Shown: one piece after another, positions 33,635 through 57,061 of the stretch
Numbering within the stretch: the first letter of the stretch is position 1
Layout of the letters: every line of letters starts with the position of its first letter
DNA from: Cetobacterium sp. 8H
Lineage (GTDB): Bacteria > Fusobacteriota > Fusobacteriia > Fusobacteriales > Fusobacteriaceae
Assembly (NCBI RefSeq): GCF_014250675.1
Contig: NZ_JACHTG010000002.1
Span: 62,001-126,000 of the forward strand
Length of the DNA stretch: 64,000 nucleotides
Reading direction: 5' to 3'
Position numbers and translations under genes: made by a program
The notes under the pieces: model-generated
The model's database searches: none
What the model was told of the DNA's origin: nothing
What the model saw: the letters and a program-made list of their open reading frames with translations, nothing else

Positions 33635-33640
33635 TATAAT
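33635..33640 (+). promoter_or_regulatory. Candidate -10 element before cas10
   Basis: TATAAT within AGTAGTATAATTAATTC, 33 bases before the cas10 ATG. No convincing -35 hexamer was found. Confidence 0.3.
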
Positions 33641-33673
33641 TAATTCAAATACTTTTATAGAAGGGGGAATCGA

Positions 33674-37310: not shown

Positions 37311-37322
37311 GGGAGGGATAAA

Positions 37323-38072: not shown

Positions 38073-38082
38073 GGGGGAAGTT

Positions 38083-39305: not shown

Positions 39306-39307
39306 TT

Positions 39308-41302: not shown

Positions 41303-41314
41303 GAGAGGATACAA

Positions 41315-41843
41315 TTGTTTTACAGTTTACTAATAAGGATTAAAGCTCAAAAAAGTGGTGAGTTTAAATTTTTTACAGGAAAAAAACTTCATGCCACTTT
41401 TTTAAATATAATAAAAAAGGCTTATCATGAACTTGCCCAAGACCTTCATGATAAGGATATTCCTAAGGAGTTTACAGTTTCAAATATTTTTGGAACTAAT
41501 AGCCGTGGATTTAAACTTGAAGAGGGAAAAGATTATCTTTTTAGAGCTACCTTTTTAAATGATAAGATATACAAAATCTTCTCTAGTGAAATATGTAAAA
41601 ACATACTTTTATCAAAGGGGATATTTGTTGAAAATATCCCCCTTTCTGTTGAAGAGATTATATATAAAGATAATAAGTATTCAGGAGTTATGGATAAAAT
41701 AGAGATAAAATCTAAAAGATATAGATTTTATTAAAGATATAAACACTCTTCTTAACTTTGCCTTTTACTGTGATATAAGAACTAAAAGTAGCGTTGGATT
41801 TGGTCAAGTTTTAATTAAAAATTTAGAAGGAGTTGAAAGATAA
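41315..41843 (+). pseudogene. cas6: Broken cas6 (crRNA-processing endoribonuclease)
   Basis: TTG start at 41315 after AGGAGAGG. The first frame gives 139 residues of a ferredoxin-like Cas6 beginning (FYSLLIRIKAQKSGEF, FTGKKLHATFLNIIKKAY with a candidate catalytic His) and stops at 41734. In a different frame the last 37 residues follow at once (DINTLLNFAFYCDIRTKSSV, GFGQVLIKNLEGVER), which is the glycine-rich Cas6 end, to 41843. The two parts add up to about 175-180 residues, less than the usual 220-250, and the region that normally holds the SPT-F motif is missing, so both a frameshift and an internal deletion are likely. The gene is probably non-functional. Confidence 0.7.
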
Positions 41844-43508
41844 ATGGCAGACTATATAGATAAAATTAAAGAACTTTGTCCTGAGTTAGATGAAGTTGGT
41901 ATAGGATCAATTGACAAATATATATCGGATCAAGAACTTAATGAAATTGAAGAAGAATTTTTATTTAATTTAAATAAAATTAATGTCGAAAAGCAACGAG
42001 AAAAAATCTCTCCAATAGATATTGGAAATATAAATACTTTTATTTCATTTTTCAGTTTGGCTGATATTGGGAAATATGAATACACTATTTTACAAAAAAA
42101 TCTCCAAATTTTTGAAAATATAAAAAACATCTATTTTCTCGCTACTCCTCAAAGCATTGATGGATGTAAAACTGAAATTAGTACTATGAAAATAGTATCC
42201 CCTGATCTCAACATTGAAATTATTAATATTGATCCAAATGACTATGATGGTGTCTATAATCTATTATTAAAAGAGATTACAAATAATGATATTGAAAATA
42301 AAAATATTCTTATTGATAATACTCTAGGACCTAAAATGATAGGTTACTCTCTCTATAAGTTTTCAATTGACCAGGGGACTAAGCTTATCACATGGCAAAG
42401 TCAAAATATAAAAGACTCAACTAAACGTGTTCCTGGAACGGATACTCTAAACTATATTGAGTTTCCTCAATTAAAAAACTCGGTAATTATAAATAAAATA
42501 AATAAATTTTTAGAGAGTTATAAATTTCAAGAAGCATCAGAGTTAGCAACTTCTATCAACAATATTGAAGAGGCTGATATTTTTGAAAAACTAGGTGATA
42601 TATTTACTATTGATTCTTTAACTTCTTATGACTCTTTTTCATTTTATATTCAAGATTTTGTAGAATCTATTAATTCTACAAAATATAGAGAAAGTATTAA
42701 AAGTAAACTTAATCCTTTTATAAAAGAATTAAAAAAATTCTTAGAATTAGAAGATGAAAAAATTCAATGTATTAACTTTTTGAGTATTCTTTTTGATTAT
42801 TTTAAAGAAAAATTCGATGGAAATCCAATATTTAAAATAGTAGTTTGCAATATATTAGAATCTACTGAAGTTTTAAATAAAAATGAGATTGAAAAAATTT
42901 TAAAACTTATTAAAACTTCAAATTTTAAAGATATCATTAAAACTGAAAAGACTCTTGATACATTCACTGCCATTATAACAATACTTTATAAAGTTCCTCC
43001 TAAAGTAACATACTTGCAACTAGAAAATTTTTATGATCACGTTCTTTATACTTTACCAAAAACTATATCTTTAAAAGATACAACTCTTTATATTGATAAA
43101 CAAGGAATTGAAATAGATCTAGTAAAAGAGTATAAATTAAGAAAAGATAGATACCATAGTTTTTTTAATTTAAAGGATTTTTCAAGTAAAAAAATTAATA
43201 AAAAAATTCTTATTGATTTATTTAGTAAAATTGATGGTGAACTTTCAAGTGATGAATTTAAAGATTTAATAGATTCTGAAAATATAAGAAATACAAAAGA
43301 GCAACAAGATACATTAATTTCTAGATTCAATAATTTTGTTAAAAATTTCAACGAATTTATTAGTAATGTTATTGAAGAAAATTATCCAGCTAAATTTATT
43401 TTTTTAAAGGACATAAATTTTATAGATTATAAAAAAACTTCTGCTAAAGATGATAATGGACGTTCTATTAATAAATATACTTTAAAAATTAATTCAATTT
43501 ACATATAA
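41844..43508 (+). CDS. Putative CARF-domain effector of type III CRISPR
   Basis: A 554-residue protein starting right after the cas6 stop (TAAATG). Residues about 93-185 have a Rossmann-type alternation: NIYFLATPQS, then IEIINIDPNDYDG, then ILIDNTLGPKMIGYSLYKF and TKLITW. The D-x-T-x-G-x-K type segment is what CARF domains use to hold cyclic oligoadenylate. The rest (190-554) is mainly helical and unrecognised, with RKDRYH (433-438), an R-x4-H match to the HEPN ribonuclease motif. If correct, this is a CARF-HEPN-like RNase switched on by Cas10 products. A terminator follows at 43524. Confidence 0.55.
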   Translation: MADYIDKIKELCPELDEVGIGSIDKYISDQELNEIEEEFLFNLNKINVEKQREKISPIDIGNINTFISFFSLADIGKYEYTILQKNLQIFENIKNIYFLATPQSIDGCKTEISTMKIVSPDLNIEIINIDPNDYDGVYNLLLKEITNNDIENKNILIDNTLGPKMIGYSLYKFSIDQGTKLITWQSQNIKDSTKRVPGTDTLNYIEFPQLKNSVIINKINKFLESYKFQEASELATSINNIEEADIFEKLGDIFTIDSLTSYDSFSFYIQDFVESINSTKYRESIKSKLNPFIKELKKFLELEDEKIQCINFLSILFDYFKEKFDGNPIFKIVVCNILESTEVLNKNEIEKILKLIKTSNFKDIIKTEKTLDTFTAIITILYKVPPKVTYLQLENFYDHVLYTLPKTISLKDTTLYIDKQGIEIDLVKEYKLRKDRYHSFFNLKDFSSKKINKKILIDLFSKIDGELSSDEFKDLIDSENIRNTKEQQDTLISRFNNFVKNFNEFISNVIEENYPAKFIFLKDINFIDYKKTSAKDDNGRSINKYTLKINSIYI

Positions 43509-43560: not shown

Positions 43561-43758
43561 TATTATGAAATTTTGCAAGATTAATAGGTGGTAAAATGAA
43601 TAATACCCCTAAGAAATTAAGATAAAATTTATGGAGTCCGATTGCAAAAATCTGTAATAAGGACGGTAAGAATTTTTCCTAATTATCCTCCTTTATTTTC
43701 AAAACTTTAATATCTAAATAATAGTAATATTTCTAATTAGTTCCTACTTAAAACAAGT
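43561..43758. other. Gene-free stretch; no CRISPR array
   Basis: Between the CRISPR operon terminator and the next terminator I see no gene and no repeated 25-40 base unit. The same holds upstream of csx20, so no CRISPR array accompanies the effector genes in this window. Confidence 0.6.
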
Positions 43759-43791
43759 AAAAAAGTTGCAGATTTTTCTCTGCAACTTTTT
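43759..43791 (-). terminator. Terminator downstream of the acid-sugar operon
   Basis: AAAAAGTTGCAGA and TCTGCAACTTTTT arms with a six-base loop, about 100 bases after the kinase stop. Confidence 0.75.
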
Positions 43792-43890
43792 CATAAAACT
43801 TCAATTTCTTCCTATTAAATCCGATTTTACTTACATCTAACGGCTACATTTATATCATGAAATTTATATGCTGTTAAACTTTGGCTTGTA

Positions 43891-45156
43891 TTAAATCTCT
43901 AAGTATAAGTTCATGAAACTGTGGATTTTCTCTATTATATCCTCATCACCAAATCCACCAGCCTTTGTGATAATATTGATAAATCTATTATCATAAATAG
44001 CTTTAGTTAAAACAACTCCCGGAACAATCTCTTCCAAAGGAACAATATAACTACAATTAATTTTTTTTAAAATCCCTGTTAATGTGTCTCCACCAAAAAC
44101 TATAAGATTTTTTAAATCATATTCTAATATAAGATCCGCTACAAATTGTCCTGTATTATTTGATATGTTAGACGTTAAAGTTTTTATAGATAAATTGTTT
44201 ATTTTTGCGTAATCAATTGTTTCTTTAATAACACTTTTTGAATCAGAAGTTTTTATAAGAATATTTTTATTCTCTTTCATCTTTTTCTTAAAATCTGTGT
44301 TAGAAATCATATAATTCGATAACTCTTTACAGTTATGACTAATTATCTTTTTAAAATTTAAGGTTTCTTTATTGTAACCTAAAGTTTCTGCATAAGTACA
44401 TTGGTTTAAAGAAATTTCATTAATACTTCCACACACAAATAAACAACGATCATCATCTAATGAAATTTTATTACTCCAATATTCCACATCTATATAATCT
44501 GCCAAAATTTCAGCAAAACCTGCACTTCCAGCAGTATATTTCAAAAGATTGTTACTATAAAGAAATTCTCCAATTTTCTTTAAATCATCTTTAATTAAAG
44601 CATCAAATACAAAAACCTCTTTTTCATTATCAATTGAGATACTTAAAATAGAATTTTTATCTTTTAAACTAGATTTTATAGAAGTTTGTTTTTCTAATAT
44701 ATCTGGAATATAACTATCCTTTACAGGATTTAAAATATCCCTTGAAAATTGTGTTTCAGAAAGTGGCATTCTATCAATATATAAAATACCATCTTTTACA
44801 GTTCTATTGCCTAAAGGAAATGCTGGAATAAGGCTTAATTTTTGGATTTTTAATCCCTCTATAAATCCTTCTATTTCACTTCCTATATTTCCTCTTAATG
44901 TAGAATCTATTTTTTTATAAAAAAAAGAAATGCCTTTATCAGAAAAATCTAAAAGAATATTTTTTACAATTTTTTTTGCCTGAATAGATGATAAATGCCT
45001 ACTTTCAGTATTAATAACAATGACACTATAATCATTATATTTTTCATCATAATTTAAATTAGAAGTAACAAGTGTAGATATTTTTTTTTTTGCAAATTGA
45101 ACTCCTGTATCTAAAGCACCTGTCAAATCATCTGCAATAACAACAAGTTTTATCAT
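43891..45156 (-). CDS. Four-carbon acid sugar kinase (DUF1537; OtnK/DtnK family)
   Basis: A 421-residue kinase. N-terminal IADDLTGALDTGVQFAKK and ESRHLSSIQAKK, then FYKKIDSTLRGNIGSEIEG and SLIPAFPLGNRTVKDGILYI are the substrate-domain blocks; VFGGDTLTGIL and GGFGDEDII in the C-terminal nucleotide domain complete the family pattern. Members phosphorylate D-threonate, erythronate or other C4 acids at O4. In a pathway with PdxA2 the product would be oxidised and decarboxylated to a triose phosphate. It is the last gene of the minus-strand operon starting with the Fe-alcohol dehydrogenase. Confidence 0.88.
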   Translation of the reverse strand: MIKLVVIADDLTGALDTGVQFAKKKISTLVTSNLNYDEKYNDYSVIVINTESRHLSSIQAKKIVKNILLDFSDKGISFFYKKIDSTLRGNIGSEIEGFIEGLKIQKLSLIPAFPLGNRTVKDGILYIDRMPLSETQFSRDILNPVKDSYIPDILEKQTSIKSSLKDKNSILSISIDNEKEVFVFDALIKDDLKKIGEFLYSNNLLKYTAGSAGFAEILADYIDVEYWSNKISLDDDRCLFVCGSINEISLNQCTYAETLGYNKETLNFKKIISHNCKELSNYMISNTDFKKKMKENKNILIKTSDSKSVIKETIDYAKINNLSIKTLTSNISNNTGQFVADLILEYDLKNLIVFGGDTLTGILKKINCSYIVPLEEIVPGVVLTKAIYDNRFINIITKAGGFGDEDIIEKIHSFMNLYLEI

Positions 45157-45170
45157 ACACAGCTCCTTTA

Positions 45171-46085
45171 CTAGTTAATTCCTTTTTCCTTATTTTCTAT
45201 TAAAACTTTTTTTATAGCTTCAATTCCCTCTTCAGAAACTTCAGAAAATGGCTTTCTGCATCTACCTACTGGGAACCCTAATAAAGATACTGCAGTTTTT
45301 ACAATCGTATTTGGATTTCCAAATTTAAAACAATCTCTAAATGAACGAATACTATCTTGAAGTCTTCTAGCTTCTTCTAAATTTCCTTCTAAAAAAGTAT
45401 TATAAATCGAAGACATTGTTCTTGGAAAGACATTAGCACACCCTGCTATTCCACCTTTTCCACCAGCTAAAAGACACCATAAAATAAGTGAATCATTACC
45501 TGATAAAACTGAGAAATCTTTTCTTGAACGAGTTTTTTCAATATATTGCAACATATTATCAAAATTTCCACTACTATCTTTAACACCAACGATATTTTGT
45601 ATTTTACTCAGTTTTTCAACAGTACTTGGAGAGATTGAATTTCCTGATCTTGCTGGAATATTATATAAAACAATCGGTAAATCAACATTTTCTGCTACTT
45701 CTTTAAAATGATTATAAAGTTCTTCTTGTGATGCTGATGCAAAATAAGGGGTAACTATTGAAAGAATATCAACTCCAATCTCTTTTGCTTTTAATGAAAG
45801 ACTTATAGTTTCTTTCGTACTTACACATCCAGTGCCTGCATAAACTGGAACTCTTCCATTTACTTCATCAACAACAATTTTTAAAACCTCTACTTTTTCA
45901 TCAAAATTAAGTATGTATGCTTCACCGTTAGTACCCAAAGGAAATATACCATGTATTCCAAAGTTTATTTGGTGATTTATTTGATTTCTAAGCTCTTTTT
46001 CATTAATAGTTTCATCTGCATTCATTGGAGTTAATAATGGTACTATTACTCCACTAATATCTATGTTTTTCATAATAAATTTCAC
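45171..46085 (-). CDS. DapA-family aldolase/lyase
   Basis: A 304-residue TIM-barrel protein of the dihydrodipicolinate synthase family: GTNGEAYIL near residue 55, LYNIPARSGNSI with the catalytic Tyr (about 143) and the Schiff-base lysine in IVGVKDSSGN (about 168), and SGNDSLILWCLLAGGKGGIAG. Members split or join pyruvate with aldehydes. A lysine-biosynthesis role is unlikely in this catabolic operon; an aldolase or decarboxylating dehydratase step on a hydroxy-oxo acid is more probable. An ATG at 46073, in frame, is the likely start if the first few residues are not used. Confidence 0.85.
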   Translation of the reverse strand: MKFIMKNIDISGVIVPLLTPMNADETINEKELRNQINHQINFGIHGIFPLGTNGEAYILNFDEKVEVLKIVVDEVNGRVPVYAGTGCVSTKETISLSLKAKEIGVDILSIVTPYFASASQEELYNHFKEVAENVDLPIVLYNIPARSGNSISPSTVEKLSKIQNIVGVKDSSGNFDNMLQYIEKTRSRKDFSVLSGNDSLILWCLLAGGKGGIAGCANVFPRTMSSIYNTFLEGNLEEARRLQDSIRSFRDCFKFGNPNTIVKTAVSLLGFPVGRCRKPFSEVSEEGIEAIKKVLIENKEKGIN

Positions 46086-46090
46086 CTCAA

Positions 46091-47617
46091 TTAAATTATA
46101 ATTTCATGTTCAAAAGCTCTAGATTGTTTTGGAAAATCAATTCTCATATGTGTTCCTCTACTCTCTTCTCTTTTTAAAGCAGCAGTAACCATATAAAATA
46201 TAGATTCAACAATTTGTAAAGATTGAGTATCTTTTTTTAAATCATCAGTTTTTAAAATAGTTGCTAATTGATCAAATGAAGATTTAAGTACTTCTCCATC
46301 TCTATATATTCCAAGTGTATTAACAGCAATTTCTTTAACCAAAGGAACAAATCTGTTATATGTCTCCATATCAATATTATATTTTATAGGTAATATTTTA
46401 TTTTCACTTGAAAAATTCGAAATAATTTTTGCTATATTTTCTGCACAAATCATTCCAGATAAAAGTGCTTGACTTGCTGCATTTCCTGCACATCTACAAG
46501 CCCCATGAATGCCACCACACGCTTCTCCTACTGCATAAAATCCTTTTAATGTCGATTCATAATTTTCATTAACCTTAATTCCACCTGAAAAACTATGTGC
46601 CATAGGACTAACCTCAATAAGTTGTTCATTAGGATCTATGCCATTACTCATTAAACGATCAAAAAACCAAGGATATGCTTTTAAAGTATCTCTATTAATA
46701 TGTCTTAAATCTACAAAAACTCCACCATGTTCAGTCCCATTCCCTTTATTTACTTCCTTCCAAATCTCTTTATTTAAAAGAGTTTTTGGTGATCCAGCTT
46801 CTCCTTGAGGTCTCACTTTTAGAAGAAATCTTTCATTCTTTGAATTTAAAAGGTAAGCACCTTCTCCTAACATAGCAGTAGGACATGGTTCTCCCACTGC
46901 ACCTGGTGGATAAGCAACAACCATAGGTTCATATTCAAGGAACTCAACATCTATTAAATCTGCACCTGCAGTTTTAGCAATAGATAGTGTATTTCCTTTT
47001 ATATCAATTGGGTAAGTTGACTTACCAAAAAGGTTTCCAACTCCTCCCCAAGCAGCTACAACTACATTTGAATATATATTCTCTATTTTACCAAAGTTAT
47101 CTTTAACCGTTATACCATACGTTTGATTATTTTCACTTAATATATTTAAGCACTCATAATCTTTATAAAACTCAATACCTTTCTCTTTTAAAGAAGCAAT
47201 TAATTGATCAACTATCTCTACACCTATAAGATTTTTAGTAGAGCATAGTGATCTTGGAAAAGTATGGCCTGATACATGTCTTAATTTTGTACTTCCATCT
47301 AGATTTTTAGCAAAATTTACTCCCCATCTTTTTAATAAGTCATAACCATTTACAGTTTTCTTTGTCATATCATTAACAAGTAAAGGATTTGAAATATTAT
47401 ACCCAGCATTTATCATATCCTCAGCGTATTTTTCAACTGTATCACCATATGGATTATCTGGTAGTACAAAATTTATAGCAGCGATAAAAGGTGTACCGCC
47501 ATAGCCTTTTGTATATATTGCTATATTTTTAACACCTAACTCATGCATTCTAGCTGCTGTTGCTAGAGATGCAAGTCCCATTCCGATAATTATTACATCA
47601 TGACCTGTATTCTTCAT
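46091..47617 (-). CDS. FAD-dependent oxidoreductase (fumarate reductase/L-aspartate oxidase-like)
   Basis: A 508-residue flavoprotein. The dinucleotide fold is at the N-terminus (DVIIIGMGLASLATAARMHE) and the FAD-closing GEACGGIHGACRCAGNAA lies near residue 370. It has HSFSGGIKVNENYEST, the substrate-loop element of the fumarate reductase flavoprotein group, and a C-terminal helical domain. It has no signal peptide and no cytochrome partner. It probably oxidises or reduces an alpha-hydroxy or unsaturated dicarboxylic-like intermediate of the imported acid. Closest pathway relatives are tricarballylate and aspartate oxidases, but the substrate is unknown. Confidence 0.8.
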   Translation of the reverse strand: MKNTGHDVIIIGMGLASLATAARMHELGVKNIAIYTKGYGGTPFIAAINFVLPDNPYGDTVEKYAEDMINAGYNISNPLLVNDMTKKTVNGYDLLKRWGVNFAKNLDGSTKLRHVSGHTFPRSLCSTKNLIGVEIVDQLIASLKEKGIEFYKDYECLNILSENNQTYGITVKDNFGKIENIYSNVVVAAWGGVGNLFGKSTYPIDIKGNTLSIAKTAGADLIDVEFLEYEPMVVAYPPGAVGEPCPTAMLGEGAYLLNSKNERFLLKVRPQGEAGSPKTLLNKEIWKEVNKGNGTEHGGVFVDLRHINRDTLKAYPWFFDRLMSNGIDPNEQLIEVSPMAHSFSGGIKVNENYESTLKGFYAVGEACGGIHGACRCAGNAASQALLSGMICAENIAKIISNFSSENKILPIKYNIDMETYNRFVPLVKEIAVNTLGIYRDGEVLKSSFDQLATILKTDDLKKDTQSLQIVESIFYMVTAALKREESRGTHMRIDFPKQSRAFEHEIII

Positions 47618-47639
47618 AATTGTCTCCTTTATTTTTTCT

Positions 47640-49538
47640 TTATACTTGTTTAACTATTTTAACAGAGGATTTTTTCTTCTTCATAATTCCAATTCCCATA
47701 ATACATACTCCTATTATAAATCCAATAATATCTGTCATAGTTTCTGGAGCAATCATACAAATGGCACCCACAAATAAAATTCCACGATTTATATTGTTCA
47801 ATGGTGTAATTAAATATCCCGAAATAGCTCCTGCTAAAAGATAAGTTCCGAAGAATAAAATAGCTGTAGCTTTAATAATCTGTATAGTAGTTCCCATAAG
47901 AAGTATCTCTGGATTATATACGAATACAAAAGGAATTAAAAATGCAACTAAAGCATACATAAATCCAGTAAATCCAGTTTTTAAAGAATCTGCCTCTGCA
48001 ATTCCTGCTGCTGTATAAGAAGCTAAACAAACTGGAGGAGTGATTTGAGCCATTATACCAAAATAAAATACAAACATATTTGCTGATAAAGGATTTACAT
48101 TTAATTTTATAAGTATTGGCACAAATAGTATATTAGAAACTAAATATGCTGCAACAGTTGGAAGAGCCATTCCTAATAACATACATCCAAACATTGCAAT
48201 AATTAGTGCTACACTCAAATGTGAAGTCCCAATTTGTGCTATAACGTTAGAAAACCTTGTAGCAAGACCTGATTGAATAACAACTCCAATAATTATTCCA
48301 CATGCTGCTGTAGGAATAGCTATGTTAGAGGCTTGTTTAACACCTTCAACTGCAGTATCTGTAATTTGATTTAAATTTTGGTAATATTTTCCATTTTTAT
48401 AAAACTTACTAAAAATATTACAAAGAAGAATAGCAAATATTCCTAAAATTCCACTTCTCATAAGTGATTTTCCTGATATTATGTATACAACTAAAACTAC
48501 AGCTGGAATCATAAGATATACTCTTTCTAAAAGTGGATTTTTAATATCAATAGATATAATCTCTTTATTTGAATCAATAGCCTCTTTTTTTGCCATAAAA
48601 GTAACTAAAAAGAAAACAGAACCATAATATGCAAGTGCTGGTATTATAGCTGCGAAAGCAACTGTTTTATAAGGAACACCCAACATCTCAGCCATAATGA
48701 ATGCTCCTACTCCCATGATTGGTGGCATTATTTGACCACCTGTAGAGGCTAATGCTTCTATTGCTCCAGCTTGATGTGGTTGATATCCAACTTTTTTCAT
48801 CATTGGAATTGTCATAACACCTGTTGTTGAAACATTTGCAACAGCACTTCCTGATATCATTCCCATCAATCCTGATGATATAATAGCAGCTTTTGCTGGT
48901 CCACCTGCACTTTTATTTGAAAATTTCATACCAAAGTCTATAAGAAGTTGTCCTCCTCCACACTGTGAAAAAAAAGATCCAAATAAAATAAAATAGAATA
49001 AACTCGTAGCTGAAGTATAAAGGGGGGTTCCAAATATTCCACCAGAACCTAATAACATAGTCTCTGTAAAACTTCTTATATTTGTTCCTTTAAAATAAAG
49101 AATTCCTGGAAAATGCATTCCATACCAAGAGTAAATAATAAAGAATAGAATAAATATAAATAATACTTTTCCTAAAGTTCTTCTAACTGCTTCAAGCAAA
49201 ATAACTATACAAACAGCAACACTTATTTTATCAAGATTTGTTACCACATCAACGTACTGAACTCTTGTACTAAGTCTTGGAAATTCAGATACAATATAAT
49301 AAAGTAAATATGTTATGCCCACATAAAAAGGTAAATCTAATATCTTCATCCATTTTTTCCCTAGTTTTTTATCCGCTGGATTTACTAGAAAAACAACAGT
49401 TAGAGCCAATAACAAATGAACTGTATTCTGTAGCATTGGATCTAATGGTCTTATTAAAGCTAAATATAATTGAAATCCTATGAAGACAGTTACTATACTA
49501 TAAAAAATATATTCATATATACCAAAAACTTTTTTCAT
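47640..49538 (-). CDS. TRAP transporter fused permease (DctQM-type)
   Basis: A 632-residue membrane protein with about 15 hydrophobic segments. The N-terminal 150 residues correspond to the small TRAP subunit, the rest to the large one with SGSAVANVSTTGVMTIPMMK, ASTGGQIMPPIMGVGAFIMAE and LGMALPTVAAYLVSN, the standard fused 4TM/12TM TRAP motifs. It imports an organic acid with sodium together with the TAXI-type binding protein encoded just upstream (36 bases). This pairing is the usual one for TAXI systems. Confidence 0.92.
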   Translation of the reverse strand: MKKVFGIYEYIFYSIVTVFIGFQLYLALIRPLDPMLQNTVHLLLALTVVFLVNPADKKLGKKWMKILDLPFYVGITYLLYYIVSEFPRLSTRVQYVDVVTNLDKISVAVCIVILLEAVRRTLGKVLFIFILFFIIYSWYGMHFPGILYFKGTNIRSFTETMLLGSGGIFGTPLYTSATSLFYFILFGSFFSQCGGGQLLIDFGMKFSNKSAGGPAKAAIISSGLMGMISGSAVANVSTTGVMTIPMMKKVGYQPHQAGAIEALASTGGQIMPPIMGVGAFIMAEMLGVPYKTVAFAAIIPALAYYGSVFFLVTFMAKKEAIDSNKEIISIDIKNPLLERVYLMIPAVVLVVYIISGKSLMRSGILGIFAILLCNIFSKFYKNGKYYQNLNQITDTAVEGVKQASNIAIPTAACGIIIGVVIQSGLATRFSNVIAQIGTSHLSVALIIAMFGCMLLGMALPTVAAYLVSNILFVPILIKLNVNPLSANMFVFYFGIMAQITPPVCLASYTAAGIAEADSLKTGFTGFMYALVAFLIPFVFVYNPEILLMGTTIQIIKATAILFFGTYLLAGAISGYLITPLNNINRGILFVGAICMIAPETMTDIIGFIIGVCIMGIGIMKKKKSSVKIVKQV

Positions 49539-49574
49539 TTGAATCTCTCCTTGTAAAAATTCTTATAGACTCTC

Positions 49575-50573
49575 TTAATTTAAATAGCCATTTTCTTTAT
49601 AATATTTTTCAGCACCAGGATGCAATTTAACTCCTGTTTGCGAAGGTGTTCCTGCTTTTTCTGGATTAAAATGTGATAATGAAGCTAGTTGAGAAGCTAA
49701 CTCTTCTTTTCCTTCACATAAAGCTTTAGTTAATCTATAAGCAGTATCATTATCCATATTTTTATGAACTAAGATTACTTGTTGTGACCCCACAGATTTA
49801 ATAAGTTCCTTTTGTCCACTCCATGTATTTGCTGGAATCTCTACATAATCAAATCCATTATCAGCAAGTTTTTTAAGAGCTTCATCACTTAATTGTGGGA
49901 AAAACATCTCTTTTGTCATACATAGCTCAGTAGTATTAGCTTGTCCTGCTGCAACGTGATCAATAGTCATATCCGCTTTACCATCTTGAAGATATATTTT
50001 AATTGCATCTCCTCCTAATAGGTTAACACTTCCTCCCCAATTTTTAATATCATCAAACGTAAGTCCATAAGCTTCAAATAATTTTACACCTGCTAAATTT
50101 CCTAGTGTTCCTACTTTTTTTATAGCGATTTTAACAGGATATTTTTTTTCAATTAGCTCTTCCATTGAAGTAATTCCTGTTTTATCAACAAATTCTTTAG
50201 TGAAAAGAATATTCACAAAATCATTACCTAATCCACCAGCTATAGCTGTATTTGATTTTGTAGCTTCTCTACCTAAAATTCCACTTTCTTCAGACCATTT
50301 TGCAGGGCCTGCATTACTCATTATAATATCACACTGTTCATTTTCTAATACTACTGGAGCACCAACTCCACCAGGAGACTCAGTAGTTAAATCTATATTT
50401 GACCCAGCTGGAAGTCCTTTTAAAAATACATTTGATATAGCAGAAGCATATTGATACGCACCAGTTCCTACCTCTTGAGTTGCAAAAGTCAGATGAACTT
50501 TTTTTACAGGTTTTTCATTTCCATAGATAGTAAATGTTCCAAATAAACAAGCCATTAATAACCATTTTTTCAT
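49575..50573 (-). CDS. TAXI-family TRAP transporter solute-binding protein
   Basis: A 332-residue exported protein with a signal peptide (MKKWLLMACLFGTFTIYG). The mature N-terminus HLTFATQEVGTGAYQYASAI and the following NIDLTTESPGGVGAPVVLEN are typical of the TAXI (immunogenic protein) family of TRAP receptors. It captures the substrate in the periplasm and passes it to the fused permease. Ligands of TAXI proteins are poorly known (glutamate, 2-oxoacids, others), so the operon's enzymes are the better hint to the ligand. Confidence 0.9.
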   Translation of the reverse strand: MKKWLLMACLFGTFTIYGNEKPVKKVHLTFATQEVGTGAYQYASAISNVFLKGLPAGSNIDLTTESPGGVGAPVVLENEQCDIIMSNAGPAKWSEESGILGREATKSNTAIAGGLGNDFVNILFTKEFVDKTGITSMEELIEKKYPVKIAIKKVGTLGNLAGVKLFEAYGLTFDDIKNWGGSVNLLGGDAIKIYLQDGKADMTIDHVAAGQANTTELCMTKEMFFPQLSDEALKKLADNGFDYVEIPANTWSGQKELIKSVGSQQVILVHKNMDNDTAYRLTKALCEGKEELASQLASLSHFNPEKAGTPSQTGVKLHPGAEKYYKENGYLN

Positions 50574-50589
50574 ATTAAACCTCCCAAAA

Positions 50590-51624
50590 TTATAAATTAT
50601 TATTTGCTAAAGTAATCGCATAATCGATTGCATTAATAAGACTTAACTCACTTGCTTTTCCACTGCCTGCTTGATCAAATGCTGTTCCATGATCAACAGA
50701 ACTTCTTATAATAGGAAGTCCTAAAGTTATATTAACTCCTGATACAGCTTCCCATCCATTTTTTGCTTGATTATATACAAATCCAATAACTTTTAAAGGT
50801 ATATGTCCTTGATCATGGTACATTGCTACAACAATGTCATACCAACCTCCACGAGCCTTTGAAAAAACTGTATCTGGCGGAATTGGACCCGCTACATTTA
50901 CTCCTTCATTTTTTGCTTTTTCAATAGCTGGAATAATTTCTTCTATCTCTTCTGTTCCAAAAAGACCATTTTCTCCGCAATGTGGATTCAACCCCGCAAC
51001 TCCAATCTTTGGATTTAATATTCCTAATTTTTTACAAGCATCGTTTGCAATCTTTATAACATCATAAACTCTATCTCTTTTGCAATTATCACATGCTTCT
51101 CTAAGAGAAACGTGTGTACTCACATGGACTACTCTTAAATTTTCATGAGCTAACATCATTGTATATTTTTTTGTATTTGTAAAATTAGCATAGATTTCTG
51201 TATGTCCAGAAAAGTGATGCCCCGCTAAATTAATAGCTTCTTTGCTAATTGCATTGGTTACTGTTGCATCTACCGTTCCTTCGTTTGCAAGCTCTATAAC
51301 TTTTTTTATATATTGAAAAGAAGCACCACCTGTTACTTTTGCAATTTCACCGACTTTAAATTCAGAGGGATTTATAACTTCCATATTATAAACATCGATA
51401 GTTCCTGGGATAAATAATGCATCATCAATAGATTTAACAGAGTTTATTTTTAAATTTTTTAACCCTGTATATTCCTTAGCTTTTTCCATAATACTTGTAT
51501 CCCCTATAATAATCGGTCTACATCTTTTATATATATCAATATTATTCAATGTTTTTAATGAAATTTCAGGTCCAATACTAGCTGGATCGCCCATAGTTAT
51601 CCCTATTATAGGTAATTTTTTCAT
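50590..51624 (-). CDS. 4-hydroxythreonate/D-threonate 4-phosphate dehydrogenase homolog (PdxA2)
   Basis: A 344-residue protein with PdxA signatures: GITMGDPASIGPEI at the N-terminus, the metal histidine in GHHFSGHTEIYA (about 135-146), PHCGENGLFGTEE and AMYHDQGHIPLK with the second histidine. PdxA2-type enzymes oxidise four-carbon acid 4-phosphates and decarboxylate the product, giving dihydroxyacetone phosphate. Since no other pyridoxine gene is present and a DUF1537 kinase lies in the same operon, catabolic PdxA2 is the better reading than vitamin B6 synthesis. Confidence 0.88.
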   Translation of the reverse strand: MKKLPIIGITMGDPASIGPEISLKTLNNIDIYKRCRPIIIGDTSIMEKAKEYTGLKNLKINSVKSIDDALFIPGTIDVYNMEVINPSEFKVGEIAKVTGGASFQYIKKVIELANEGTVDATVTNAISKEAINLAGHHFSGHTEIYANFTNTKKYTMMLAHENLRVVHVSTHVSLREACDNCKRDRVYDVIKIANDACKKLGILNPKIGVAGLNPHCGENGLFGTEEIEEIIPAIEKAKNEGVNVAGPIPPDTVFSKARGGWYDIVVAMYHDQGHIPLKVIGFVYNQAKNGWEAVSGVNITLGLPIIRSSVDHGTAFDQAGSGKASELSLINAIDYAITLANNNL

Positions 51625-51634
51625 TTTTCCCTCC

Positions 51635-52792
51635 TCAATCTAATACTTTTAAGTAAATATCTTTAATATCTTCAAGAGTTAACTCTTTTAAATTATTATC
51701 TAATAATCTTGTTACCTTGCTACTCGCAGTTACTAAAAACTCTAAATCTTTTTTTGTAACTCCAAATTCATTAAGATTAGTTGGTATATTTGTTATATTA
51801 ACAATACTTTTTATCTCATTAATTATATGGTTTGCTTTTTCTAATAAAGAGTGATTAATCATATTTGGATTTAAAATATCGCAAAGTTTTGAAAATTGTT
51901 TTAAACATGACTCTTTATTAAACTCCATAACAGGTACCATCATAACTGCATTTGATATTCCATGTGGAATATGAAATTTTCCACCTAAAGGATACGCTAA
52001 TGCATGAACTGCTGTGGTTCCAGAAGATGTTATGGCAATCCCTCCGTAAAATGAACCTAACAACATATTCATCTTAGCTTCAAGATTTTCTGAATTTAAG
52101 TATGCCTCTTTTATGTTTTTTAATATAAGTTCAGAACCTGCTAAAGAGTACAAATCACTAAATGGTGTAGATTTTTTAGAAGTTAAACATTCGATACAGT
52201 GAGCTAGAGCATCTACTCCAGTAGAAGCAATAAGCTTTTTAGGAAGTGTTGCAATTGTTGTGGGGTCCAATATTACATAGTCTGGAATTAAATCTTGGTT
52301 TACAATTCCAACTTTTATTCCATCTTCGGGAACAGTAATAATTGAATTGCATGTTGCTTCAGACCCAGTACCACAAGTTGTGGGAATCATAAGAGTCTTT
52401 ATACTTTTGAATCCTAGAGAAGGATTATTTAATAAATCTTTAATGCTGTATGGAGCACCCTTTAATATTGAACAAAGTTTTGCTATATCTAAAACACTTC
52501 CTCCTCCTATTGCAAGAATAAAATCAGTTTTACACTCATTAAGTTCAACCATTATATTCTCTATATCGTAATAACTAGGTTCAATTGCCAAATTATCAAT
52601 TATAGTATAACCAATATTTTCTTTTTTTATTCTATCAACAATATCTTTAAAAAATTTGAATGTTTTAACTGTGGAATCTATAAAAATAGTTAAACTATTA
52701 ACATTTTCTTTTTTTAGAATTTCTTCAATTTGATTTAAGCTATTAAATCCAGCATAAACATTTGAAGGTAAAGCTAATGAATACATTTGCAT
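51635..52792 (-). CDS. Iron-containing alcohol dehydrogenase
   Basis: A 385-residue group III alcohol dehydrogenase. The start ATG at 52792 is preceded by GGAGGAGAT; the frame is open to 52846 but the upstream part contains the regulator site. The nucleotide loop is GGGSVLDIAK (about 95-104), PTTCGTGSEATC follows, and metal-binding histidines appear in ALAHCIE and in HALAYPLGGKFHIPHG. First gene of the acid-sugar operon, with a GTCGAC-centred operator candidate 25 bases upstream. Substrate is probably a hydroxy acid or aldehyde. Confidence 0.87.
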   Translation of the reverse strand: MQMYSLALPSNVYAGFNSLNQIEEILKKENVNSLTIFIDSTVKTFKFFKDIVDRIKKENIGYTIIDNLAIEPSYYDIENIMVELNECKTDFILAIGGGSVLDIAKLCSILKGAPYSIKDLLNNPSLGFKSIKTLMIPTTCGTGSEATCNSIITVPEDGIKVGIVNQDLIPDYVILDPTTIATLPKKLIASTGVDALAHCIECLTSKKSTPFSDLYSLAGSELILKNIKEAYLNSENLEAKMNMLLGSFYGGIAITSSGTTAVHALAYPLGGKFHIPHGISNAVMMVPVMEFNKESCLKQFSKLCDILNPNMINHSLLEKANHIINEIKSIVNITNIPTNLNEFGVTKKDLEFLVTASSKVTRLLDNNLKELTLEDIKDIYLKVLD

Positions 52793-52816: not shown

Positions 52817-52829
52817 AAATGTCGACAAT
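52817..52829 (+). promoter_or_regulatory. Candidate GntR operator AAATGTCGAC, operon side
   Basis: AAATGTCGACAAT lies 25 bases before the dehydrogenase start. The same ten bases occur inverted before the GntR gene at 53714-53723, and ACAATCATA follows both at a comparable place (52843 and 53729). Confidence 0.5.
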
Positions 52830-52957
52830 CTACTTTTGTGATACAATCATACTCCGGAACTTTTCCTTTGTCAATATTATTTTTTAAAAAAATATTCTAA
52901 ATAATTACAATAAGTTGGAAAAATGTAACTAAATGATTATTTATAGTAATGTACAAT

Positions 52958-52992: not shown

Positions 52993-53673
52993 TTATATTA
53001 CTAAATTTTTAATTAAATATTTAACCAAAACATTTCCAGATGTAAGTATATGATTTTTCATCTCTTCTTCTGCATTTTTTTTATCTTTTTTTTCAATTAA
53101 TTGTATTAATTTATCATGTACACCATACTCAAGAGATAAGTTAGAATCCACAAGCATATTATATTTTGACATTCTCATATAAAGCTGTGTTTGAAGAACA
53201 AAGTTTTCAATTAATTTTTGTAATTTGGTATGATTTGATTTTTCCCATATAATACTATGAAATTTAACATCATTTTTAATAAAAGTTTCAATATCCTGTT
53301 TTTTAAGACTAATTGTCATTTGTTTTGATAAATCTTTTAATTTTTGTAAGTTATCAAAAGTAATATGATCAATCGCTAGTATCACAGCTGTACTTTCTAA
53401 AATTGCACGTAAAGAATACGTCTCTTCAATACTTTTTTTAGTCAATACAGCAACAGTAGCTCCCTTTTTAGGAGTATATTCTAATATTCCTTGTGCAGCT
53501 AGTTCTCGAATTGCTTCTCTAATAGGTGCTCTACTAATCTTCATTTCAGTGGCAATTGTTTGCTCAACTATTTTTTCACCTGATTTTAGATATCCTGTTG
53601 CTATAGCATTGAGTATAGAATTTATAACTTCAACATATAAATTAGTGTTAGTAACTGGTTTAAAAGCTCCCAT
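52993..53673 (-). CDS. GntR-family (FadR subfamily) transcriptional regulator
   Basis: A 226-residue regulator. The ATG at 53673 follows AAGGAAGG; the frame is open to 53736 but this part covers the promoter and operator. The winged helix-turn-helix occupies residues about 12-75 (GEKIVEQTIATEMKISRAPI, then REAIRELAAQGILEYTPKKG). The C-terminal helical FCD domain has the metal-binding type residues of this subgroup (FIKNDVKFHSIIWE, and a later HDKLIQLI and NHILTSGN). It is transcribed separately upstream of the acid-sugar operon and probably represses it and itself. Confidence 0.9.
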   Translation of the reverse strand: MGAFKPVTNTNLYVEVINSILNAIATGYLKSGEKIVEQTIATEMKISRAPIREAIRELAAQGILEYTPKKGATVAVLTKKSIEETYSLRAILESTAVILAIDHITFDNLQKLKDLSKQMTISLKKQDIETFIKNDVKFHSIIWEKSNHTKLQKLIENFVLQTQLYMRMSKYNMLVDSNLSLEYGVHDKLIQLIEKKDKKNAEEEMKNHILTSGNVLVKYLIKNLVI

Positions 53674-53710
53674 AGTGTAACCTTCCTTTTTAATGAATTT
53701 AAAAGTGTAT

Positions 53711-53723
53711 ATAGTCGACATTT
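53711..53723 (-). promoter_or_regulatory. Candidate GntR operator AAATGTCGAC, regulator side
   Basis: Minus-strand AAATGTCGACTAT, sharing ten bases with the site at 52817, 38 bases upstream of the regulator's ATG. Confidence 0.5.
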
Positions 53724-53786
53724 TATAAACAATCATAACATTTTTTTTATTTTATCTCAACTTTTTTTAAACAAAAAAGCTGCCTC

Positions 53787-54437
53787 TTAAATTTTATTTT
53801 TTAGTATACCCAATCTATACTCAATATCTTTAATTTCTTTTTGCAACTCTTTAACTTGAGAATATTTTTTAGCAAGTTCTTTTTCTAACTTTCTAACATC
53901 ATCATCCCCATCAATTATAATTTCAGCTTCTAAAATTTCATTTTTATATATTGTCGGGTCACCCGACAATATATTTTTTATCTCTTCATACTTTCTCACT
54001 GGCTTTTCTGATTCTAAAATTTCCAATATTTGCTCTTTAGGTAAAATAATTTTGGGTGTCGACAACTCTTTTACCATTTTTTCTGGAATAGCCATCACTT
54101 TTTCATTTTCATAATTTAAATAAAGATTATATCTTTTAAGACACATATATACAAAATCTTTCTTTAATCCAATCTCTTCAAACCAATTTCTAAATCCACC
54201 ATTTTTATAATTTGATAATATTCCCTGAGCTTCATATAGTGTCTCCGACAAAGATAATAAATGTTCAACTGATTTTTGTTGATGAAATAATATATTTTTC
54301 TCACAGCTAATCATTTTTTTCAAGTCTTCTTCTTTTAATTCAAAATTTGCATAATCAACTATTGGAGAATATTGTTCTACAACTTTAACTTTTTTTGTCT
54401 CTTTAAATGCCCCTCTATCTTTTAAAAACTTTGACAT
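53787..54437 (-). CDS. Plasmid partition-associated protein (ParB position, DUF3102-like)
   Basis: A 216-residue protein directly after parA (11 bases apart), so it holds the ParB position. Residues about 40-110 have the layout of DUF3102-type helix-turn-helix proteins of plasmids and phages (YEAQGILSNYKNGGFRNWFE and LKKDFVYMCLKRYNLYLNY). The C-terminus is a coiled coil (KELEKELAKKYSQVKELQKE-like). No ParB CTPase box is visible. The gene itself contains a perfect 29-base palindrome at 53946-53974, a candidate centromere site. Confidence 0.65.
   Translation of the reverse strand: MSKFLKDRGAFKETKKVKVVEQYSPIVDYANFELKEEDLKKMISCEKNILFHQQKSVEHLLSLSETLYEAQGILSNYKNGGFRNWFEEIGLKKDFVYMCLKRYNLYLNYENEKVMAIPEKMVKELSTPKIILPKEQILEILESEKPVRKYEEIKNILSGDPTIYKNEILEAEIIIDGDDDVRKLEKELAKKYSQVKELQKEIKDIEYRLGILKNKI
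53946..53974. repeat. Perfect 29-base palindrome with GTCGGGT/ACCCGAC core
   Basis: Left arm 53946-53959, single spacer C at 53960, right arm 53961-53974, all 14 base pairs perfect. The core GTCGGGTCACCCGAC is GC-rich in a very AT-rich gene. It lies within the coding sequence of the ParB-position gene (codons for LSGDPT). A centromere (parS-like) or an operator role is likely. Confidence 0.7.
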
Positions 54438-54448
54438 ATATTTCCCCC

Positions 54449-55207
54449 TTAAATTTGCTCTCTTTTTAAAATCTCATCTCCTAAAGCCTCATAATCCTTA
54501 GCTCCATTAGAGTTTGGTTTATATTCGAATATATTTTTCATTAAAGCTGGTGCTTCAACTAAAGAGATATTATTTCTTATTTTTGTATTTATTAATTTAT
54601 CTCCAAAATAATTTTCTAATTGCTCTATTACTTCATTCGCCATATTAACCCTAGCATCATACTGTGTTAAAAATACTCCACCTATATTTAGGTTTGGATT
54701 CATATCCTCTTTAACATTTTCGATAACCTCCAGTAAAACTGAAGCTCCTCTCATTTCAAAATATCCACTTTTCAAAGGAATGTAAACTGAGTCTGCACAA
54801 GTTAAGGCATTTAATGTTAATGTCGATAAGTTTGGAGATGTATCCATTATACAAATATCATAATTTTTTTCTAATTTAGATAATCCTTTTTTTAATAGCA
54901 ACTCTCTTCCTAAAACAGATACAAAATCAAGGTTTGCTTTTTCAACATCTAAATTACTTGGTAATAAGTCTATATTTTCTGTAATTAATAATAAACTTTC
55001 TGATAAATCTTTATCTTTTAAAGCATCATAAGCTGTTTTTTCTAAATTTTCTAAATCAATTCCAAAAGCATCTGTTAAGTTTCCTTGTGGATCTAAATCT
55101 ATTGCCAAAACTTTATATCCTTTTTTAGCAAAATATCCAATTAAATTTAATGCTGAGGTTGTTTTAGCAACTCCTCCTTTATTATTTGCAATAACTATTT
55201 TTTTCAT
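54449..55207 (-). CDS. parA: ParA/Soj-type partition ATPase
   Basis: A 252-residue ATPase with the deviant Walker A KGGVAKTT (10-17), the ParA signature VLAIDLDPQGNLTDAFG and the Walker B MDTSPNLSTLTLNAL. No N-terminal DNA-binding extension, so it is the short chromosomal/type Ib form. It moves plasmid copies apart using the ParB-position protein encoded next. It lies between the replication initiator and that partner, the usual plasmid order. Confidence 0.93.
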   Translation of the reverse strand: MKKIVIANNKGGVAKTTSALNLIGYFAKKGYKVLAIDLDPQGNLTDAFGIDLENLEKTAYDALKDKDLSESLLLITENIDLLPSNLDVEKANLDFVSVLGRELLLKKGLSKLEKNYDICIMDTSPNLSTLTLNALTCADSVYIPLKSGYFEMRGASVLLEVIENVKEDMNPNLNIGGVFLTQYDARVNMANEVIEQLENYFGDKLINTKIRNNISLVEAPALMKNIFEYKPNSNGAKDYEALGDEILKREQI

Positions 55208-55255
55208 TTAAATCCTCCACCACAATAATTTTTTTATATTATTAATTACTAAATT

Positions 55256-57061
55256 TTAAATCAAGTTTTTTCTTATTATTTCCTCTAAATTCTCTAGAGT
55301 CAACATTTTATTTAAAAAAGCTGGCATACAATCTAGTATAATTCTTTTTTTTGCATTTTCTAAGCTTTCAATTTTTTCATCTAATAAATCTTCGTATAGA
55401 TCTATATATTCGTTTATATATTTTTTCAATTTATCTTTATCTGTTATAACTATTAGGTTTTCATTTTGTTCATTAATTTCTTGAACTTTTATTTTCTTTA
55501 TCTCTTCCTTTTTTATATTTCCTAATAATTCTGGATATTTTTCCAAATAATCACATATTAGTTTTTTTCTACTACCTAAAAATGCTATCTGTTGAATTTT
55601 TGTTTCCATCCCACATAACTTTATATACTCCCTGTAAACATATCCCTCAATTCCATCTTGAATCTCTCTAGGTAATTTCTCAAACTCAGAAAAAATTAGT
55701 TCCTTATTTTCATTATTTATATTTGCAGGCTTTTCATCTTCTAATTTTATATCTATATTTTTTTCATTTTTTAAAACTATCTCTTCAACAAGATCATTAG
55801 CCCAATTATTTTCTAAAATTTTTAAAAAATAAGCTCTAGGACTGGTTAACTTCTTCTGTGCAGATAGATATATTGCTGCTGCTTTAACTTTAGCATATCC
55901 ATATTTTTCTAAGTTCTTTTCTACAGTTTTACAGATAGATTTTAATTTTTTAGCTTTATCTGGCATAAGTTCTATTATTTCATTTATCATTTCATCATTT
56001 ATAATGATTTCTGGTTTTAATTCTTTTATATTTTTTTCAGTAAAACTTATAGCTAAACTATTATAAATTTCTTTTAATTCTCTATTGTCATCTTCAAATC
56101 TCTCTTTTTTTAATATATTATGCTCTTCACTATAATATATTTCAACATCAGCCTCTAACCATGTTGTTTCTTTTAAAAATTTAAAATCTTTTATCAAATT
56201 TTTAGCCTTTAATTCACTAAAAGCTTTTTCTAAAGTTTTTATTGTAACTGGCAAACTTCTTTTTTCATATTTTAATGGTATTTTTTTTATAAGGGCAAAT
56301 ATAGATTCTCTTATACATAAACTATCAAATCTTATCTTTTCCAATAACATATATAACGTTCTAGCTATACTAGAATTAATATCTAAAAGAATATCCGAAT
56401 CATATACTAAATATCCTCTTTTTACGATATTTTTATAAAAATGATCGGATATTTTTATTAAATAAAATTCTTTTATTCTATTATCATTTATAGTATTTTT
56501 TATTTTTTTTATTTCTCCTAACGGAATTTCACTTTGTGATTTATAAGTTAATATAGGTGTATTAATTTCCCCACTTAAAATGATTCCTAACTCATTTGAA
56601 TACATTGTATTTTTAAATGTATAATTTGATTTTGAAAGTCTTGATATTGCCTTTTTTATATCTGACAAATAATTATTTGTATTAATCTTAGCAGCTTCTT
56701 TTATCTCTCTGGCTGTGGCTATAAACTCTTGTTCCATTCCTTTTTCTTTCATAATTTTCATTAGTGCTATAAAAATTCTTTCTTCTGCTTCTCCTGGAAT
56801 TAAATCTCCTGCTGCTGGGGTAACAGTAATAAAAATATCCTTGTTTTTATTAAAAAAATAAGTTGTAATTTCGTTCTTTTTTCTTTTAGTATTCTTTGAA
56901 AAAATTGGAAACTGCACAATGTTCATGTCAACTCTTATTAAAGCTCTATTTCTTACAAATTCTTCTGGAATATATACATCCTCTTCTAAGAAACATGTTG
57001 GTCCGGTATCTACTGTTTCAATCTCAAAATAATTATCTTTAACAAGTTTATTCTTAGACAT
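55256..57061 (-). CDS. Plasmid replication initiator protein
   Basis: A 601-residue protein with ATG 57061 after GAAGGAGAAAATA; the frame is open to 57100. Residues about 60-130 hold PGEAEERIFIALMKIMKEKG and a following helix-turn-helix type region (TAREIKEAAKINTNNYLSDI, KKAISRLSKSNY), the arrangement of RepA/initiator proteins of the winged-helix class. The C-terminal half is lysine/glutamate-rich and long compared with the common 300-350 residues. Directly upstream lie five iterons, and parA follows 48 bases after the stop, so this is a complete replication-partition module. Confidence 0.75.
   Translation of the reverse strand: MSKNKLVKDNYFEIETVDTGPTCFLEEDVYIPEEFVRNRALIRVDMNIVQFPIFSKNTKRKKNEITTYFFNKNKDIFITVTPAAGDLIPGEAEERIFIALMKIMKEKGMEQEFIATAREIKEAAKINTNNYLSDIKKAISRLSKSNYTFKNTMYSNELGIILSGEINTPILTYKSQSEIPLGEIKKIKNTINDNRIKEFYLIKISDHFYKNIVKRGYLVYDSDILLDINSSIARTLYMLLEKIRFDSLCIRESIFALIKKIPLKYEKRSLPVTIKTLEKAFSELKAKNLIKDFKFLKETTWLEADVEIYYSEEHNILKKERFEDDNRELKEIYNSLAISFTEKNIKELKPEIIINDEMINEIIELMPDKAKKLKSICKTVEKNLEKYGYAKVKAAAIYLSAQKKLTSPRAYFLKILENNWANDLVEEIVLKNEKNIDIKLEDEKPANINNENKELIFSEFEKLPREIQDGIEGYVYREYIKLCGMETKIQQIAFLGSRKKLICDYLEKYPELLGNIKKEEIKKIKVQEINEQNENLIVITDKDKLKKYINEYIDLYEDLLDEKIESLENAKKRIILDCMPAFLNKMLTLENLEEIIRKNLI

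Follow-up and report, generated by a model that had tools for sequence, protein, structure and literature searches.

D-threonate catabolism is reportedly a short route: the work of Zhang et al. from 2016 on acid-sugar pathways with DUF1537 proteins is said to have found that the kinase DtnK and the dehydrogenase/decarboxylase PdxA2 alone are enough for it. Sialic acid catabolism makes use of the lyase NanA, a YhcH/NanQ anomerase, a sialidase and a TRAP transporter. In Escherichia coli, genomic region GR6 holds a kinase–PdxA2 pair that has been tied to synthesis of pyridoxal phosphate, and a similar cluster with sialidase, dapA and adh genes is reported from S. meliloti; the excerpted text of that source gives no catabolic substrate (PMC12928451). 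Here we describe a minus-strand operon of seven genes, positions 43891–52792 of a 64,000-nt stretch of the Cetobacterium sp. 8H genome (NZ_JACHTG010000002.1, positions 62,001 to 126,000; hereafter the window), which combines parts of these systems. Our tentative reading is that it degrades 3-deoxy-D-lyxo-hept-2-ulosaric acid (Dha), a component of the pectin rhamnogalacturonan II (RG-II), by the fusobacterial variant of a pathway that is widespread and undescribed. In this pathway a Dha aldolase of the DapA family and a D-threuronate reductase would feed DtnK and PdxA2; in Fusobacteriota a new flavin adenine dinucleotide (FAD) enzyme of the NadB/FrdA superfamily would act before the aldolase. 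The carriers would include fusobacteria, enterococci, plant-associated bacteria and, among complete E. coli genomes, about one in five.

From 52792 down to 43891 the genes encode an iron-type alcohol dehydrogenase (Fe-ADH), PdxA2, a TAXI-type solute-binding protein, a fused TRAP permease, a flavoprotein, a DapA-family lyase and a DUF1537 kinase, with intergenic gaps of 10–36 bases. All seven had been proposed in an initial annotation made from the sequence, and strand, coordinates and families were found as given there. The flavoprotein occurs in 7 of 98 Fusobacteriota genomes (E ≤ 1e-80) and the lyase clade (E ≤ 1e-95) in the same seven when 244 genomes, taken as relatives and partly from outside the phylum, were searched. 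As both proteins single out the same seven genomes, the recurrence of the cluster exceeds chance. The seven genomes represent three genera; four of them, 3.3–4.1 Mb in size, are probably Fusobacterium. Eight genes, the operon plus a gene for a GntR/FCD-family regulator, are found in identical order in the window and in five other Fusobacteriota genomes; the seventh cluster (G079) is cut by a contig end, leaving six of the eight genes visible. The regulator gene was outside the range of the initial annotation. As it has the same place in 6/6 clusters that reach that end, including the window, its conserved position suggests that it belongs to the gene set. Identity to the window proteins is 69–82% for the lyase, 72–79% for PdxA2 (full copies), 60–74% for the flavoprotein and 37–56% for the kinase, except for one short kinase piece at 69%.

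Between the TRAP permease and the flavoprotein, three of the seven clusters (G068, G069, G071) have a DUF386 (YhcH/YjgK/YiaL) gene. In G079 this slot is filled by a gene for an SDR-like oxidoreductase (L017:3172-3915; named by eye), and in the window, G032 and G070 there is neither. Two DUF386 genes lie elsewhere in the genome of the window. In G070 (L016) the matches to the kinase, to TRAP and to TAXI are each split in two, which makes frameshifts or assembly errors likely. A contig scan with poor N-terminal patterns returned one metagenome-assembled genome only, Fusobacteriaceae Pq454_bin26, whose code might indicate a termite source, on the same contig as that of G032; downstream of its operon (L004:1-6084) are a second TAXI/TRAP pair and ECF-type-transporter-like and YkoF-like genes, named by eye.

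Outside the phylum we found a core of four genes, for the lyase, Fe-ADH, PdxA2 and the kinase, which recurs in many bacteria from gut and plant habitats. When plasmids were searched with the lyase, 47 records matched, and the neighbouring genes were examined in seven of them. In six (Enterococcus raffinosus, Subdoligranulum, Niallia, Cupriavidus, Pantoea vagans and Klebsiella pneumoniae) the core lies within ∼10 kb; it was not found in the seventh, from E. gilvus. The lyase is 68% identical to that of the window in E. raffinosus and 61% in Subdoligranulum. The Klebsiella Fe-ADH match consists of two pieces in different frames, and in Subdoligranulum the kinase gene is ∼5 kb away from the other three. 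Two large open reading frames (ORFs) with esterase-like domains, one above the Pfam cut-offs and one just below, lie between the Subdoligranulum kinase and transporter genes (L022:5732-9342), and in Cupriavidus sp. KK10 the kinase and PdxA2 share one 775-codon reading frame (L025:10106-12433). Beside the core, a BNR_2 (sialidase-fold) protein is encoded in E. raffinosus, Subdoligranulum, Cupriavidus and Klebsiella, accompanied by a YhcH gene in E. raffinosus and Klebsiella. Niallia and P. vagans instead carry genes for a D-2-hydroxyacid dehydrogenase (53% mutual identity) and an MFS transporter.

The core is also found in E. coli Nissle, where DeoR, PdxA2, dtnK, Fe-ADH, lyase, TerC, sialidase-family, YhcH and SLC13 genes lie between glnS and nagE. 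Of 5426 complete E. coli genomes, 1043 (∼19%) contain at least 80% of this 8,980-base block. It is the block that the excerpted text of PMC12928451 describes as GR6. A search with the sialidase-fold protein gave 288 records, five of which were examined: P. stewartii has PdxA2, Fe-ADH and lyase genes, no kinase in the stretch and an SDR oxidoreductase gene beside a YhcH gene; the Roseomonas record has Fe-ADH and lyase only; and the gene table of the P. agglomerans record, the one source used for it, lists no core gene. Lyase-family matches were seen in 15 of 73 genomes from outside the phylum at E ≤ 1e-62 (best 9.5e-82), and a search of the phylum around G142, which covered three genomes, gave no match at E ≤ 1e-85. 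The transporters differ between lineages (TRAP, DASS/SLC13, MFS of the D-galactonate type, SSF and oligopeptide-type ABC); the first three suit acids or di-acids.

The remaining operon genes have a narrower distribution. No TAXI, TRAP or flavoprotein match was obtained in the six plasmid records or the E. coli and Rhizobium loci (E ≤ 1e-6), and plasmid searches with the flavoprotein and the TAXI protein returned three 27% matches and one 30% match. Among 389 genomes, with the top three candidates per genome scored, no flavoprotein was found outside the seven fusobacterial genomes at E ≤ 1e-75. As the lyase and Fe-ADH accompany the kinase and PdxA2 without the flavoprotein in other lineages, the genes probably serve one pathway with a larger starting compound and D-threonate at its end. 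The initial annotation had proposed to look for the same gene set in other genomes, which was successful for the Fusobacteriota clusters and for the core of four elsewhere. Its view that the flavoprotein, lyase and Fe-ADH lie outside a simple C4 route is supported by this joint occurrence of lyase and Fe-ADH with kinase and PdxA2. It had further suggested that the substrate is larger or needs redox preparation. The lineage comparison agrees with a larger substrate; redox preparation fares less well, as the flavoprotein is confined to Fusobacteriota among the searched genomes and a 2-hydroxyacid dehydrogenase is seen beside the core in two records.

The tetronate end of the route is clearest in the enterobacterial homologs. 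The E. coli cluster kinase scores 533.4 bits against the D-threonate kinase model NF047819 (cut-off 450) and its PdxA2 681.6 bits against the D-threonate 4-phosphate dehydrogenase model NF002891 (cut-off 583); the P. vagans proteins, at 520 and 658, likewise pass both. This agrees with the earlier proposal that a DUF1537 kinase and PdxA2 form a D-threonate/erythronate core. The window kinase reaches 113.9 bits on the 3-oxo-tetronate kinase model. Among solved structures the window PdxA2 is nearer to 2hi1 (288 bits) and 6e85 (280 bits), both named PdxA2-type, and to 4jqp (298 bits), the name of which is silent on this; other entries gave at most 181 bits.

The lyase passes the DapA equivalog TIGR00674 (248.3 bits, cut-off 206.15), so an automatic pipeline would call it DapA, and it does not reach the NanA models (170–186 bits, cut-offs 281–382). 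Its motifs are GTNGEA, TPYF, YNIPAR and KDSSG. The host genome has two further members of the family, one with the full DapA signature (L048; GTTGES, TPYYN, YNVPGR, KEASG) and one that is NanA-like (L047; GSTGE, TPFYY, YSIPFL). We take the DapA catalytic set to be T44-T45, Y107, Y133, R138 and K161; the second threonine and the inter-subunit tyrosine are residues of the DapA site and the lysine forms the Schiff base. In the window lyase this set is incomplete: T45 is replaced by N53 and Y107 by F115, and Y141, R146 and K169 are kept. With each signature present elsewhere in the host and with different site residues, we rejected both DapA and NanA as the function of the window lyase. It clears the DapA cut-off in a genome that encodes the full signature elsewhere; this lyase clade is likely misannotated, and the label "DapA" that the curated threshold assigns is probably mistaken.

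Where the window lyase has R146, the host DapA-signature protein has arginine and the NanA-like protein leucine. According to Joerger et al. in 2003, the DapA arginine reportedly binds the carboxylate of aspartate semialdehyde, with leucine at that place in NanA. D-threuronate is the dihydroxy C4 counterpart of aspartate semialdehyde, the DapA adduct itself being a C7 2-oxo-4-hydroxy diacid. The arginine is kept in the three other aligned fusobacterial lyases and in those of E. raffinosus, Subdoligranulum, Niallia, the two Pantoea, Klebsiella and E. coli; the Cupriavidus lyase has lysine there. In the Fe-ADH, H198, H263 and H277 are at what we take to be the places of the FucO metal ligands.

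Gene content and order, their conservation and the site residues are observed here; together they suggest the following route. A diacid would be imported by the TAXI-TRAP system, whose two components exceed their model cut-offs (TAXI protein 94.1 against 84.35 bits, fused permease 571 against 321), and the flavoprotein may dehydrogenate the incoming acid to a 2-oxo acid or prepare it otherwise, which is the least certain step. The lyase, with K169 as Schiff base, would then release pyruvate and D-threuronate (2,3-dihydroxy-4-oxobutanoate), and the Fe-ADH would reduce the latter to D-threonate; gene association and site residues point to both reactions. From there the established families suggest phosphorylation to D-threonate 4-phosphate by the DUF1537 kinase, followed by oxidation and decarboxylation by PdxA2 to dihydroxyacetone phosphate and CO2, which would lead to glycolysis. 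The GntR protein would repress at TTGTCGACA until the substrate appears. The order lyase, Fe-ADH, kinase, PdxA2 is probable. It would explain the presence of the Fe-ADH in many lineages because reduction of 2,3-dihydroxy-4-oxobutanoate would make D-threonate, and that of the DapA-family lyase because cleavage would release this aldehyde-acid together with pyruvate.

With pyruvate and D-threuronate as products, the parent would be a 2-keto-3-deoxy-heptaric acid. We see about an even chance that the operon catabolizes a C7 2-keto-3-deoxy aldaric acid, for which Dha, as such or in reduced or modified form, is the leading candidate. Dha itself stands somewhat short of even. To our knowledge it is the only natural 2-keto-3-deoxy-heptaric acid. 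In the Fischer projection D-lyxo places C4 left, C5 left and C6 right; after cleavage between C3 and C4, C5 still points left and C6 right, and reduction at C4 then yields D-threonate, the substrate of DtnK and PdxA2. An erythro outcome would have contradicted the assignment. The YhcH-type genes (NanQ anomerase family, putative anomerases) and the sialidase-fold genes near the core would, by analogy, point to a cyclic ulosonic acid. Our literature search brought up neither an account of how Dha is catabolized nor a paper that assigns a function to this gene set.

Other acids were set aside by reasoning. The lyase products of sialic acid, 3-deoxy-D-manno-octulosonic acid (KDO) and 2-keto-3-deoxynononic acid (KDN) would reach a C4 acid only by way of an aldehyde dehydrogenase, and there is none in the operon. 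A hexarate (C6) route would yield glycerate, with no use for PdxA2.

Among solved structures the flavoprotein comes closest to L-aspartate oxidase (134 bits), followed by SdhA/FrdA proteins (112 bits), and none of the 25 curated families shown was reached at its cut-off. H341 and R375 match the His/Arg carboxylate clamp of NadB and FrdA. At the position of the catalytic arginine, presumably R287 in FrdA and R290 in NadB, the flavoprotein has K278 in an alignment to L-aspartate oxidase (2e5v), the FrdA alignment being ambiguous there, and the histidine of the YHP motif is replaced by E230. All four residues are invariant in seven orthologs. The protein begins directly with the FAD fold, with no signal peptide by eye; no flavin mononucleotide domain was found in Pfam, and no gene for an iron–sulfur subunit or other redox partner adjoins. 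The 2-hydroxyacid dehydrogenase gene next to the core in Niallia and P. vagans leads us to propose that the flavoprotein might form the 2-oxo group from a reduced C7 diacid. We hold this, the weakest step, to be doubtful.

Several observations weigh against the pathway as proposed. The window kinase is only 26% identical to that of E. coli and scores 190.6 bits against NF047819, below the cut-off of 450; PdxA2 scores 334.8 bits against NF002891, below 583, and is higher on the PdxA model NF002992 (388.3 bits; cut-off 470 missed). As both are below the D-threonate cut-offs, we infer their specificity for D-threonate from family and context. In Rhizobium and Roseomonas the lyase is of a different DapA subfamily that lacks the arginine, and only two of the five examined sialidase-fold records, both Rhizobium plasmids, hold all four core genes. 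The SSF symporter of Klebsiella and P. stewartii and the oligopeptide-type ABC transporter of Rhizobium are hardly informative about a di-acid. A YhcH gene is absent from four of the seven clusters in Fusobacteriota, including that of the window. A sialidase-fold protein was not found in the seven fusobacterial genomes, in a search that had no positive control there and whose query did find its own family elsewhere. AlphaFold models of the flavoprotein and the lyase had confidence scores (pLDDT) of 49 and 47 and were not used. Finally, Dha carries a 2-oxo group from the start and does not require the flavoprotein, so either the fusobacterial substrate would be reduced or otherwise different, or the flavoprotein has another role.

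This last point also favors a related reading with the same logic and another parent, i.e., a different 2-keto-3-deoxy or amino acid (a stereoisomer, or a 2-amino or 2-hydroxy C7 diacid) on which the flavoprotein would act as a NadB-like amino- or hydroxyacid oxidase. Its closeness to L-aspartate oxidase, the 2-hydroxyacid dehydrogenase of Niallia and P. vagans, and the SDR oxidoreductases of G079 and P. stewartii would fit such an enzyme. Against this, we know of no natural C7 diacid of that kind, and the YhcH-type gene that three of the seven clusters in Fusobacteriota carry points to a cyclic keto sugar acid; we therefore consider this parent unlikely, though it is the strongest competitor. 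It is improbable that the operon merely imports D-threonate or D-erythronate for the kinase and PdxA2, with lyase, Fe-ADH and flavoprotein gathered beside them for other substrates. The two enzymes reportedly suffice for D-threonate, but lyase and Fe-ADH stay with them across Fusobacteriota, Bacillota and Pseudomonadota despite differing transporters and regulators.

We also considered salvage of 4-hydroxythreonine for vitamin B6 supply, in which the kinase would make 4-phosphohydroxythreonine and PdxA2 would act as PdxA. The PdxA cut-off of TIGR00557 is passed by the window PdxA2 and by that of E. coli, and PdxA2 is described as capable of the PdxA reaction in the excerpted text of PMC9997740, citing Thiaville 2016. 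The use of the product requires PdxJ, however, which was found in none of the seven fusobacterial genomes with the cluster by a search that was positive in 4 of 14 controls, and the lyase and Fe-ADH would have no role. Thus, we rejected vitamin B6 use, which we regard as very improbable, and retain a Dha-type acid as the preferred substrate.

The coordinates of the operon and its flanking signals are collected in Table 1. The promoter-like site ahead of the Fe-ADH gene is the top scorer among 71 such sites in the region, where 63 are expected by chance; such sites thus hardly exceed chance, and this one is nonetheless the best. Directly behind its −10 box, TTGTCGACA is found at this position in 6/6 fusobacterial clusters that reach that end, with three matches across the whole window against 0.08 expected. 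The Fe-ADH probably starts at the ATG at 52792, which agrees with the end coordinate of the initial annotation. The TTG start at 52846 of the ORF list is probably wrong, because the −10 box covers it and a GGAGG site precedes the ATG.

Table 1. Features of the operon and its surroundings (window positions).
Feature	Position	Strand	Remarks
DUF1537 kinase (SBD_N + NBD_C)	43891-45156	-	Pfam above cut-off; D-threonate kinase model nearest
DapA-family lyase	45171-46085	-	ATG start probably 46073; T52 N53, F115, Y141, R146, K169; proposed 2-keto-3-deoxy-heptarate (Dha) aldolase
FAD_binding_2 flavoprotein, NadB/FrdA relative	46091-47617	-	E230, K278, H341, R375
Fused TRAP permease	47640-49538	-	TIGR02123
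TAXI-type solute-binding protein	49575-50573	-	Model above cut-off
PdxA2-type dehydrogenase/decarboxylase	50590-51624	-	Nearest solved structures 4jqp, 2hi1, 6e85
Iron-type alcohol dehydrogenase (Fe-ADH), 385 aa	51635-52792	-	Proposed aldehyde reductase
GntR/FCD-family regulator	52993-53736	-	Upstream of operon; would regulate it
GntR operator-like TTGTCGACA	52820-52828	-	Directly behind -10 box
Promoter-like TTGACA-17-TATGAT	52846-52874	-	11/12 positions matched
Terminator-like hairpin	43758-43793	-	3' of last gene; 1 found, 2.5 expected by chance

The assembled genome measures 2.57 Mb in six contigs, and the window is part of contig C2 (164,781 bases). Beyond the regulator gene, five copies of GTTCCTAGGTAATTT, spaced by 22–23 bases (57221–57328), precede genes for a 614-aa probable replication protein, named by eye and with no curated Pfam match, and then ParA (53787–57100). 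The repeats, the replication protein and ParA suggest that an iteron-type plasmid origin adjoins the operon and that C2 is probably a plasmid. Close matches of the stretch among plasmids were limited to four Cetobacterium somerae records (74–77% identity over at most 7% of the stretch). On the other side, a Type III-B-like CRISPR locus (33187–43508; Cas10/Cmr2 and RAMP proteins) ends ∼380 bases from the last gene of the operon. Its last ORF (41844–43508, 554 aa) has no Pfam match, and no CRISPR repeat array was seen in the one nearby stretch searched (28500–33700).

If the proposed pathway is correct, it would provide a fate for Dha, one of the rarest pectin sugars, and explain a block that ∼19% of complete E. 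coli genomes carry, the probiotic strain Nissle 1917 among them, and that also occurs in enterobacterial, rhizobial, enterococcal and fusobacterial genomes or plasmids. It would predict two new enzyme activities, a Dha aldolase and a D-threuronate reductase, and make the substrate of the whole transporter set directly testable with one compound.

Compared with known systems, the flavoprotein resembles NadB and FrdA in family and carboxylate clamp and differs from them by lysine for the catalytic arginine and glutamate for the YHP histidine. Sialic acid catabolism shares a DapA-family lyase, TRAP, a DUF386 protein (in three fusobacterial clusters, E. raffinosus and enterobacteria) and, outside Fusobacteriota, a sialidase-fold protein. 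In contrast to it, the window lyase has the arginine of DapA rather than the leucine of the NanA-like protein, no N-acetylmannosamine kinase or epimerase is present, and the endpoint is a tetronate. GR6 of E. coli, as the excerpted text of PMC12928451 presents it, has the core of four with sialidase-fold, YhcH-like and CitT-like genes, and lacks TAXI-TRAP and the flavoprotein. The D-threonate pathway of DtnK and PdxA2 has a kinase and a dehydrogenase/decarboxylase of the same families, whose E. coli homologs in the wider cluster pass both equivalog cut-offs. The window proteins stay below these cut-offs, and to that pathway the window set adds a DapA-family lyase and an Fe-ADH upstream, import by TAXI-TRAP and a flavoprotein.

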